From NCBI GenBank assembly GCA_028285035.1, contig JANQQF010000117.1:37828-101827 (forward strand): DNA of 64,000 nucleotides, read 5' to 3'. Made by a program: the position numbers and the translations under genes. The notes below the pieces were generated by a model. The model worked only from the letters and a program-made list of their open reading frames with translations, made no database searches and had not been told where the DNA came from. The stretch is from Phycisphaerae bacterium. GTDB taxonomy: Bacteria > Chloroflexota > Anaerolineae > 4572-78 > J111. Position 1 is the stretch's first letter; each line of letters opens with the position of its first letter. This document shows, one piece after another, positions 38,424 to 47,113 of this stretch.

Positions 38424-38627
38424 CTAGAGTGCTTCCTGAGCTTGATGCTCAATCAGTTCATCCTGTAAGGCGATCACCAGCTCGGTCAGGTTGGCAAAAC
38501 CACGCCGCTGACCACTGTCCAAATCTTGCCAGCTAAACCGCCAGAGGATGACGTCTCCGCTGGCATCGGTTTCAGCCCAACAGCGAAAGAGATAAGAACG
38601 GTAACGTCGTTGTTTTGGGTGGCTCAT
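38424..38627 (-). CDS. Small regulator-linked protein A (67 aa)
   Basis: I start this frame at the ATG at 38627 (MSHPKQRR) because AAGGAAG lies 6 bases upstream; an in-frame start at 38720 would run through the gene upstream of it. The 67-residue product is compact, with 'YRSYLFRCWAETDASGDVILWRFSWQDLDSGQRRGFANLTELVIALQDEL': alternating strands, then an amphipathic helix. It resembles the 67-residue protein at 46910-47113, which likewise is divergent from a BTAD regulator. Similar small proteins occur near such regulators in Chloroflexota as far as I recall. Function unknown. Confidence 0.65.
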   Translation of the reverse strand: MSHPKQRRYRSYLFRCWAETDASGDVILWRFSWQDLDSGQRRGFANLTELVIALQDELIEHQAQEAL

Positions 38628-38641
38628 TGTTCTTCCTTTGC

Positions 38642-38860
38642 TTATTTTCGTCGCCAGCGAGCTCGCAAACCACGGCCATTCAACCCATTCGCATTTTTTG
38701 AGTTTAGCAAGTGAGACCATTTCAAAACTAACATTTTGGATGTTTCTTGCTGTTTTTCAGTAGTAGGCTCGTCGATTTCAAATGTATCCTTGCAGACCTG
38801 CATTTGGGGAAGTCTATGGATTGGATCGATTATCACGTGGGTTTGATTGATAAAACGCAT
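38642..38860 (-). CDS. Hypothetical small protein (72 aa), regulator-divergent
   Basis: A 72-codon frame starts at an ATG at 38860 with a strong AGAAAGGA ribosome site 7 bases upstream and ends 14 bases before the 67-residue gene. The product is polar, with a His/Asp-rich N-terminus and a basic end (RGLRARWRRK). It resembles no family I know. It is probably the first gene of a two-gene unit divergent from the BTAD regulator. The coding call rests mainly on the ribosome site and arrangement. Confidence 0.5.
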   Translation of the reverse strand: MRFINQTHVIIDPIHRLPQMQVCKDTFEIDEPTTEKQQETSKMLVLKWSHLLNSKNANGLNGRGLRARWRRK

Positions 38861-38932
38861 AAGAATGTCCTTTCTTTAATAAACATTTCAAAGAATGAAG
38901 GTTTGTTTGTGTTATCTTCATCCGTAAAGTTG

Positions 38933-38941
38933 TGTTATACT
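38933..38941 (+). promoter_or_regulatory. Extended -10 promoter of the first BTAD regulator
   Basis: TGT-TATACT (-10 at 38936-38941) with the extended TG motif; no good -35 is present, as allowed for extended -10 promoters. Predicted start near 38948, about 93 nt before the ATG at 39041. No ribosome site precedes that ATG. Confidence 0.45.
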
Positions 38942-38959
38942 GCCATCCTATCAAAGGAC

Positions 38960-45400: not shown

Positions 45401-46647
45401 TCATAGCCGGGACGATATTGCCCAGTCAGGCCGCTTTGCAAAAGGGTTTCTAGATTGTCCAGCACTAGCAGACACCGTTTTTGGCGTAGATGCGTGAGAA
45501 GCAAGGCGAGTTTTTCAGCCAGACTATCTGGATAGTCAAGGACAGGGTTCCCAGCCAAAGTTTGTAAAATGTCAGGCAAGATTTCATCTAATTTAGGCGC
45601 ATTGAGTAACGAGTGCCAAGTGGTCACTTCAAACTCATTATTCACAGCGCGGGCCATCTGTGCGGTTAGACTGGTTTTGCCCTGCCCACCCATACCCAAA
45701 ATGGTCACCATCCGACAGCGCTCTTCAACCAGCCACTGTCGTAATTGGCCTAATTCAGTGGTCCGGCCAAAAAAGGTTCCGGTCAATGGCACCTCTACCC
45801 AACCGAGCTGAGCAGTGCTCTGTGTTTCCATCGGTTGGTCCAACTCGCCCTGTCTGATTTGTTCGGCTAACGTCTGTATCTGTGGCGACGGCTCTACGCC
45901 TAACTCCTCAGCCAGCAGTTGCCGGCATAAGTTAAATTGGGCCAGTGCTGCCATTTGGTGGCCGGTTCTAGCCAAAATTTCCATCAATTGACCGTGGCCC
46001 ATTTCAGACCAAGGCTCCAATTGTAATTGCTGTCGGGCATACTGTTCGGCCAATTGATAATCAAGTTGGTGATATGTGTTCGACAGATGATAACCAGCCA
46101 GGCAATGGAGCAGGCTTAACATCTGTATATGATATTTTTCTTGCTGTTCCAGTCGCCACGTTTCAAACTCCTCGGCATTTTCAACACATAAATCACTCAA
46201 AAATTCACCTTTATATAAAGGAACAGCTTGAGACAAGGCCTTTGCACACCCAGGAATGTTAACCTCGCCATCGGCTGATTTTTCTTCACAAATTGTCAGT
46301 AGGTTATTAAATGTGACCACATCGATCCAGTGATGAGCTGGATTGAAGTTGAATTGAATGGTTTGCCGGGTAGTGGTAAACAGCGGGGTCTCGACCTCAA
46401 GCGGGGCCAATAGCTGACGCAATTTGGCAAATGTGGTGCGTAGATTGGTTCTGGCTTTTTGGCTCGGTTGGTTTCCCCACAGGAGCGTGGCTAGCGCATC
46501 ACGAGAGTGAGGCCGGTTGGCTTCTATCAGCAGATAGGCCAGCAACGCCCGGGCCTTGCTTGAATAAAAGGTGGGTAAGGGGTCGCCATTGAGGGAAACT
46601 TGAAATGGACCAAACAAACAAACGTTCAAACTTTGAGCGTTCTTCAT
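42499..46647 (-). CDS. BTAD/SARP-like regulator with NB-ARC ATPase and 14 WD40 repeats
   Basis: This 1382-residue protein has an N-terminal winged helix ('NVCLFGPFQVSLNGDPLPTF', 'RDALATLLWGNQPSQKARTNLRTTF'), a BTAD domain to about residue 270, an NB-ARC ATPase with Walker A GMGGQGKTS and Walker B CLLVLDNLE, a short pentapeptide-like stretch ('YDFSGLSVWQAYLQDAALSGVNF'), then 14 WD40 repeats (about 735-1345; core 'FSPDGQTLASGS...TVRLWD'). Fourteen repeats make two seven-bladed propellers. It ends 'ISGVTGITEAQRSALKALGAVED'. The WD40 part likely binds a ligand or protein and controls DNA binding by the N-terminus. The repeat DNA is well preserved. Confidence 0.92.
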   Translation of the reverse strand: MKNAQSLNVCLFGPFQVSLNGDPLPTFYSSKARALLAYLLIEANRPHSRDALATLLWGNQPSQKARTNLRTTFAKLRQLLAPLEVETPLFTTTRQTIQFNFNPAHHWIDVVTFNNLLTICEEKSADGEVNIPGCAKALSQAVPLYKGEFLSDLCVENAEEFETWRLEQQEKYHIQMLSLLHCLAGYHLSNTYHQLDYQLAEQYARQQLQLEPWSEMGHGQLMEILARTGHQMAALAQFNLCRQLLAEELGVEPSPQIQTLAEQIRQGELDQPMETQSTAQLGWVEVPLTGTFFGRTTELGQLRQWLVEERCRMVTILGMGGQGKTSLTAQMARAVNNEFEVTTWHSLLNAPKLDEILPDILQTLAGNPVLDYPDSLAEKLALLLTHLRQKRCLLVLDNLETLLQSGLTGQYRPGYEEYGRLIETLAQHEHQSCLLLTSRERPQSRWLSQANLPGVQTLPLNGLDLEAVHQILQVHNLTISQSEASKLAHRYSGNPLALNLVGQAIQEFYFGNVEAFLGEETPIFDDVRGVLDKQFNRLSSLEQDILLWLAISREPLFPLDLTARLARFVRQRELLETLRSLQQRSLLERDQTGFRLQNVITEYLTDYLVVQVSQEIEQSQLNLLHSHTLLLAQTKEYVRQSQRRLILKPIANQLKTKLGLAKVDQFCRDHLDQLRQSSLPPSYAAGNILNLLLHLEIDVTGYDFSGLSVWQAYLQDAALSGVNFARVDLAGTVFTDTFGAVYSVAFSPDGKVLAAGTIDGTVRLWQANDGQPVKILRGHIAAIWPIAFSPDGQTLVSGSLDQTAKIWDVESGHIRYILQGFREAVTAFAFSPDGQTLASSSADTMIRLWDTNSGALIQTLQGHTNWIQGLACSPDGALLASGSRDETVRLWDMKTGQLLHILQGHEGAITKIAFSPDGGLLASGGRDQTIRLWDISAVLQTNGVDTDGPVRHILQGHTNYITAAVFSPDGQTLASTSADHTVRLWDVPSGQLLHIFRGHTDVVRFAVFSPDGQTLASGSWDQTVRLWDIYSRQATYTLQGYTNWIYCIAYNPDNTLLATGSGDNKVRLWDRKRGKVYRTLSGHTNWVWSVIFSPDRKTLASASSDQTIRLWDIDTGQTRRILEGHQDQVKTLDFNPDDETLASGSLDGTIRLWNPTTGQTNHTLQGHSNWVLCVVFSPNGQILASASADFTIRLWDVTSGQLLHTLQGHQDGVETVAFSPDGKTLASGSWDRTIRLWDVATIRGTGDAEVPDKESYCILEGHTSWVRTVAFSPDGRTLVSCSNDNSVRLWDIADPESSQNSESRHTLLGHTNWIYDLAFSLDGQTLASASADETIKVWDVQAAECLDTWAMPGPYEGMNISGVTGITEAQRSALKALGAVED

Positions 46648-46858
46648 TAGGCTTATCGTCTCGCTATGATGATTACAATCTTTGTCTTTATTGGTGTGTA
46701 GTCAAAATCTGGTAGACCTTCCCGCTTACAAAACTGGGTCTGGAAAGTTGTTTGGGGGAAGGATACATAGTTCCTCGCCGAAATTGTAATGCACTCAAAA
46801 TCATTTGTCCATCGTAAATTTGGGTGATATTTCTTACTACGTTTTCGCTACGGTCACC

Positions 46859-46867
46859 TGATATGAT
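46859..46867 (+). promoter_or_regulatory. Extended -10 promoter of the second small protein
   Basis: TGA-TATGAT (-10 at 46862-46867) with the extended TG motif, about 43 nt before the ATG at 46910; the -35 is poor. GTCAC / GTGAC short inverted arms flank the -10. Confidence 0.4.
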
Positions 46868-46909
46868 CCGTGACAAATTTGCTTTAAGCTGTAAAGGAAC
46901 GGGATATAG

Positions 46910-47113
46910 ATGCAAAATCAGCCAAATTTACTCAAACCCCAAGCTAGTTCTTATCGATTTTTCGTCCTTCGTGTGTGGCGCGATACCCCGAATGGTCAAC
47001 AACAGTATATGCTCAAAGCCGCCGATAATCGGCAGCAGCATATCTTTGCTGATAGCCAAAGTTTAGTCGAATTCTTGAATCAAACAACCTACCAAGTAGA
47101 CGAAACTCGCTAG
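46910..47113 (+). CDS. Small regulator-linked protein B (67 aa)
   Basis: The ATG at 46910 follows AAAGGAAC. The product has 67 residues, the same length as small protein A, and shares its pattern: 'SYRFFVLRVWRDTPNGQQQYMLKAADNRQQHIFADSQSLVEFLNQ' matches 'RYRSYLFRCWAETDASGDVILWRFSW...RRGFANLTELVIALQ' in Y-R-x-hydrophobic-R-x-W-x-(D/E)-T, F-A-(D/N) and an L-V-x-x-L helix. It is divergent from the WD40 regulator and lies upstream of the giant gene. Function unknown; it could bind a regulator or stand in for a phosphorelay partner. Confidence 0.65.
   Translation: MQNQPNLLKPQASSYRFFVLRVWRDTPNGQQQYMLKAADNRQQHIFADSQSLVEFLNQTTYQVDETR

Follow-up and report, generated by a model that had tools for sequence, protein, structure and literature searches.

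Does a gene of 67 codons which lies divergent from a very large regulatory gene belong to the regulator, or to the gene which follows it? The question is raised by a stretch of 64,000 nucleotides from a member of the Chloroflexota (hereafter the window; GenBank assembly GCA_028285035.1, contig JANQQF010000117.1, positions 37,828 to 101,827), in which the region 38424–47113 carries two convergent BTAD regulator genes, each with a small gene divergent from it. We regard as quite probable, and as the best explanation of the locus, an AfsR-type activator cassette which would drive the small protein from a divergent promoter bearing a repeat operator.

The two regulators

The two convergent regulators of the BTAD/NB-ARC type which had been predicted originally are present, encoded at 39041–42490 on the forward and at 42499–46647 on the reverse strand, with a spacing of 8 bp. 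The left regulator (1149 residues) was identified by Pfam as possessing BTAD [PF03704, E 1.6e-26], NB-ARC and TPR domains, and it matches AfsR chains in the PDB [2.6e-12]. The right regulator (1382 residues) consists of a SARP part, a P-loop region and WD40 repeats, with 14 WD40 stretches recognized by Pfam; the best 25 of its 73 Pfam matches are all of the propeller type. Its SARP part was assigned because the NCBIfam AfsR model covers residues 3–399, because it matches PDB chains of EmbR [1.8e-15] and AfsR [2.1e-13], and because it aligns with the left regulator over 583 columns (32% identity), in the SARP and ATPase part only. Both proteins possess the N-terminal DNA-binding part and BTAD domain of large SARPs of the AfsR type, and the STAND ATPase is represented by NB-ARC in the left regulator and by the aligned P-loop region in the right, the sensors being TPR and WD40, respectively. 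The AfsR equivalog model NF053617 gives 123.4 and 90.1 bits, below its curated cut-off of 1430 bits; by these scores the regulators are related to AfsR and are not AfsR itself.

The open reading frames (ORFs) confirm a 67-codon gene at either end, divergent from its own regulator: small protein A is encoded at 38424–38627 on the reverse strand, and small protein B at 46910–47113 on the forward strand, preceded by a Shine-Dalgarno-like AAAGGA at 46893–46898.

The small-protein family

That A and B share a sequence pattern was borne out at the profile level. BLASTP aligns them with 25% identity [8e-4], B scores 22.7 bits against the profile of A's family, where 999 shuffles of B reach 8.3 at best, and hhalign comparison of the two gives a probability of 86.7 [4e-6]. 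AlphaFold2 predicts three strands and a helix for A (predicted local distance difference test, pLDDT, 86.6) and for B (pLDDT 80), B's fold being only partly independent of A's since its alignment consists of family members. We take B to be a divergent member of A's family, with a predicted beta-beta-beta-alpha fold. The equal length which had been pointed out holds for A and B but not as a family trait, the range being 64–78 residues among A's metagenome relatives and 62–111 among 120 listed profile matches; overall, the family comprises undescribed proteins of about 60–90 residues.

A has nine metagenome relatives at 63–75% identity, and the same search with B returned only B itself. In the genome collection the nearest relatives of A occur in Anaerolineales metagenome-assembled genomes, and when genome contigs were scanned with the alignment of A, 17 loci were found, of which 16 carry the names of Chloroflexota groups and one that of Acidobacteriota. 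With a profile built from 77 members, 512 proteins were detected at E values up to 1e-3; neither a Pfam domain nor an informative name was present among the 120 of these which were listed, and no significant Pfam or NCBIfam match was found for the family. The median ratio of nonsynonymous to synonymous substitution rates (dN/dS) is 0.16 across seven close pairs, of which three include A or the proteins nearest to it and several show saturated dS, and the small protein appears to be under purifying selection.

In the class of genome G001 the family was found, by a narrower profile, in 49 of 120 genomes (E 1e-6); of 151 genomes sampled over its phylum, 28 carry it (E 1e-5). It is present in four of 149 genomes from the phylum to which G016, the genome with the Acidobacteriota-labelled locus, belongs; a BTAD gene adjoins the small gene in three of these (L196–L198), and the fourth, L199, has only a weak 19-bit match there. 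The highest count in a single genome is 15 (G009). Two other arrangements were seen. In locus L001 (9732–10207) two tandem, clearly different family genes stand behind a single operator and a single BTAD gene. In the Acidobacteriota-labelled locus L017 (1434–2183) the reading frame of the small domain stays open through a signal-like segment and another domain beyond it, possibly a fusion with cargo or an assembly error.

Linkage to BTAD genes

The window and 171 fetched loci, which were chosen by the small protein alone, provided 158 distinct small genes. A BTAD gene lies divergent within 1.5 kb of 102 of these (within 500 bp of 93), and a further 12 follow such a gene in the same orientation, at a gap of 120 to 608 bp behind the regulator frame; the linkage to BTAD genes that had been anticipated is thus conserved. 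Six others are divergent at a greater distance and two are convergent. In an independent Pfam PF03704 search of 16 genomes, with 150 of 218 BTAD matches listed, the nearest listed BTAD gene was divergent within 1.5 kb for 40 of 76 family matches.

The 57 complete partner regulator frames have a median length of 1068 residues. Six are shorter than 400 residues and may include frameshifts. A Walker A motif is present in 71 of the 73 partner frames of at least 500 residues. Locus L198 (325–1725), from the phylum of G016, has a SARP frame of 309 residues, too short for an ATPase domain, and then the small gene. This arrangement points to the SARP part as the shared partner of the small proteins.

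Operator and promoter

Were the regulators SARPs, direct repeats one helical turn apart would be expected in the intergenic region which each shares with its small gene. The putative left operator (38960–38985, reverse strand) is an 11-bp direct repeat of two complete copies and an incomplete third, of which only the beginning is present; 9 bp farther on lies a -10 box, TAGGAT (38945–38950), which faces a 72-codon ORF and A; this layout recurs in L001. The right one (46837–46854, forward strand) has two 7-bp blocks 11 bp apart, matching at six of seven positions, and a -10 box, TATGAT (46862–46867), which lies 7 bp past the second block and faces B. Both distances agree with the published rule for SARP promoters, for which the cited passage gives a repeat spacing of 11 or 22 bp and a distance of 8 bp between the 3' repeat and the -10 box (PMC10936776).

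Of 93 distinct divergent intergenic regions, 89 contain a 7-bp block which recurs 11 bp away with six or more positions matching. When all lags from 4 to 45 were scanned in 94 regions (one containing an N), lag 11 occurred in 90 and the others in 7 to 31, the highest value belonging to lag 22. The promoters are oriented: in 88 regions the hexamer TAnnnT lies 7–10 bp past the second block 60 times in the direction of the small gene versus once in that of the BTAD gene. The full operator, that is, the repeat with a -10 box at 7–10 bp, faces the small gene in 70 of the 93 regions and is found on the reverse strand in three. For comparison, 127 other regions between genes of these loci were scanned: seven contain it, and lag 11 by itself is slightly raised in them (42 versus 24 to 38 at other lags from 7 to 15). 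Upstream stretches of 250 bp contain it in 69 of 102 cases and in reverse in two, versus a mean of 1.05 and a maximum of 4 in block shuffles. Sixty-two sites aligned on the -10 box give the consensus ACGWTTT-N4-ACGNT-N6-TG-N-TANNNT, in which nothing had been imposed beforehand besides the repeat and the hexamer's TA and T. In the same-strand class the full operator precedes the small gene in six of 12 cases. This layout is that published for the promoters of SARPs such as AfsR, the activator of the 63-residue AfsS, and the divergent regulator therefore very probably has the small gene as its direct target.

Probable operon structure, exported cargo and co-divergence

A next gene on the same strand within 300 bp was present in 96 of 129 cases, and the median gap to 109 same-strand next genes was 78 bp, which is consistent with co-transcription. 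By a crude hydropathy rule 74 of the 96 close next genes appear to be exported versus 88 of 240 other genes of the same loci (Fisher p 1.3e-11). The small gene would thus commonly head an operon for an exported protein.

Over 109 modules small-protein distances follow regulator distances (Mantel r 0.52); when partners were swapped within genomes in 2000 trials the mean r was 0.18 and the maximum 0.40, none reaching 0.52. For the 114 module pairs from the same genome r was 0.64. At regulator (BTAD) distances of 0.35–0.45 the next genes are homologous in just six of 62 module pairs, and the small-protein distance averages 0.45. As the small protein tracks the regulator and the cargo is usually swapped, the small protein belongs to the regulator's cassette more than to the cargo, and it is probably part of the regulatory circuit. 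The original prediction had offered the small protein as a possible partner, ligand or target of the regulators: the operators support the target well, and co-divergence points to a partner only indirectly.

Proposed mechanism and alternatives

Linkage, operator, promoter orientation, family, predicted fold, co-divergence and frequent exchange of cargo are all read from sequence, and upon these the following scheme is based. An AfsR-type activator, composed of a SARP part, a STAND ATPase and a sensor of TPR or WD40 type, would bind the two direct repeats, spaced by one helical turn, before the divergent promoter, and would recruit RNA polymerase there. In the resulting transcript the beta-beta-beta-alpha protein would be encoded by the first gene or the second. 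Binding to the repeats and activation of the small gene are proposed here by analogy with AfsR. The exported protein which often follows would be an exchangeable output, and the two cassettes of the window would have come together secondarily. As to the biochemical role of the small protein, it is possible, if somewhat short of probable, that it modulates its own regulator by feedback; the SARP part would be the likeliest point of action, since this is common to long and short partners. A tentative extension would make the small proteins dedicated feedback switches, each turned on by its own regulator, which bind the SARP domain and thereby determine or terminate the response, each cassette then being a portable unit of one regulator and one switch, with varied exported cargo, many times per genome.

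Several observations weigh against this scheme. For 36 of the 158 small genes no BTAD match was found in the fetched stretch (seven of the 36 have less than 500 bp upstream), and the full operator is present before 11 of the 33 such genes which could be scanned. The proposed DNA binding is read from DNA sequence, and contact between regulator and small protein is conjectural. Furthermore, in a control set of 20 loci, with 21 BTAD matches picked as having no small gene nearby, lag-11 repeats accompany 15 of the 21 matches (other lags from 6 to 19 accompany 1 to 10). Four of these loci (L175, L177, L178 and L180) have, near the BTAD gene, a full operator which points away from that gene, in L177 in both directions; in L181 and L182 it lies farther from the BTAD gene, and L174 turned out to hold a family member downstream. 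In L175 (G001:C4:652800–656800) the operator directly faces an exported-looking gene, no small gene being detected. Such a circuit therefore does not need the small protein. The repeats thus go with these regulators themselves, of which the small gene would be a frequent but not the sole target.

The remaining contrary points are also those which would make the small protein a servant of the cargo, acting in the cytoplasm as a chaperone, a quality factor or a pilot for export, produced alongside secreted proteins and linked to the regulator only through the latter's control of the operon. Besides the preponderance of exported-looking next genes, these follow 23 of the 36 small genes lacking a near BTAD gene (divergent or downstream) versus 51 of the 93 with one (p 0.43); the L017 member, as a candidate in-frame fusion, may be a cargo partner; and at BTAD distances below 0.35, the closest module pairs, cargo is shared in five of 11, one of these five being the two small genes of the single L001 operon. 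We nonetheless doubt this explanation, for the cargo is so rarely homologous at distances of 0.35–0.45, where the small protein still tracks the regulator, and 22 of the 96 close next genes do not appear exported by the same rule. A role as an ancillary transcription factor which relays the signal to promoters elsewhere, through a fold binding nucleic acid, we consider improbable. It would recall AfsS, a 63-residue target of AfsR; according to the cited passages AfsS binds upstream of the genes for other activators (PMC8007912, PMC6988585), and a passage of another review has it act in an as yet unknown way (PMC10972967); the top Foldseek probability among 50 listed rows (0.51) also belongs to an MBD DNA-binding domain, at a weak E value of 1.0. 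That the small ORFs serve only as leaders or attenuators, with no function at the protein level, is very improbable even though many stand first in their transcripts, since their residues are conserved, the fold is predicted confidently, the dN/dS ratio given above is low, and some small genes lie close behind other genes of the same strand.

The symmetry of the locus, with the same parts in both halves, had led to the proposal that the whole pair is one functional module derived by duplication and inversion. The comparisons do not uphold this, and we give it hardly any weight. When 108 other modules are ranked by distance, the right BTAD comes 80th in closeness to the left one and B comes 103rd in closeness to A; with the right half as the starting point, the left BTAD ranks 48th and A 36th, so that the halves are not mutually nearest. 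The closest module to A and the left BTAD is L001. The sensors are unlike, and a single convergent pair of BTAD genes within 12 kb (in G007) was seen among the 150 listed of 218 matches in 16 genomes. The symmetry is best read, on these distances, as two distant copies of the widespread activator cassette joined secondarily, tail to tail.

Relation to known systems

In Streptomyces, afsS lies behind afsR, and the 12 same-strand cases described here look closest to that gene order. By analogy of gene arrangement and operator AfsR/AfsS would be the nearest known system, the window having by sequence the same layout of an adjacent small-protein gene under a SARP-type operator. The cited passages describe a large SARP-STAND-TPR protein, two 11-bp repeats near the -10 box and an adjacent 63-residue target (PMC10936776, PMC8007912, PMC10972967), AfsR being the activator of afsS (PMC10936776). 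In the cassettes described here, by contrast, the target is mostly divergent and often precedes a gene for an exported protein; it belongs to a predicted beta-beta-beta-alpha family with up to 15 copies in one genome. The SARP part of the right regulator also resembles that of Mycobacterium EmbR, a BTAD regulator which is not known to possess a STAND ATPase or a sensor. The promoters of antibiotic clusters controlled by SARPs such as ActII-ORF4, DnrI and PimR share the heptamer repeats with the classic 11-bp period, overlapping the -35 region, whereas the targets named in the cited passages are biosynthetic and regulatory genes of antibiotic clusters and not a small-protein family (PMC10972967).

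Among the matches listed, our literature searches gave no paper on the small-protein family or on BTAD/SARP regulators in the Chloroflexota. For this large class of regulators, the outputs of which in that phylum had no paper among those matches, the analysis names a probable target, derives a consensus for the operator and suggests how the operons are organized. It also defines a family lacking a Pfam or NCBIfam model, extends the AfsR-AfsS theme to another phylum with more than 100 natural replicates, and predicts, for each STAND sensor, which of the neighbouring proteins it controls.

Neighbouring genes

Between A and the left regulator lies a 72-codon ORF (38642–38860, reverse strand), the first gene of the putative left operon, which the original prediction had not listed. 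It carries a Shine-Dalgarno-like AAAGGA and has a 36% match in L002 (9765–9977), directly before the small gene there. A is followed on the same strand by an ORF of 109 residues (37918–38247) with a weak HTH_65 match [1.2e-4], below the curated cut-off, and no exported score by the hydropathy rule; its homologue in L003 stands immediately behind the small gene (42% identity, 5e-16). Beyond it, on the same strand, is an 870-residue repeat protein (34987–37599) with a signal-like start and the C-terminus IYFPLIVK. Similar YLPLV motifs end 19 same-strand next genes of small-protein loci, and endings of this type may be a sorting signal.

On the other side the next gene after B, at a gap of 258 bp, encodes a giant exported-looking protein of at least 5543 residues (47372–64000, forward strand; open at the window end) with an N-terminal signal-like segment and many repeated domains. 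Antisense ORFs inside it are probably shadows. A search for tRNA genes in the window found none, and the ORF at 19597–21498 is one which we take, by reading, to resemble SelB. The GC content is approximately 0.38–0.43 over the first 32 kb of the window and 0.49–0.56 from 48 kb onward.

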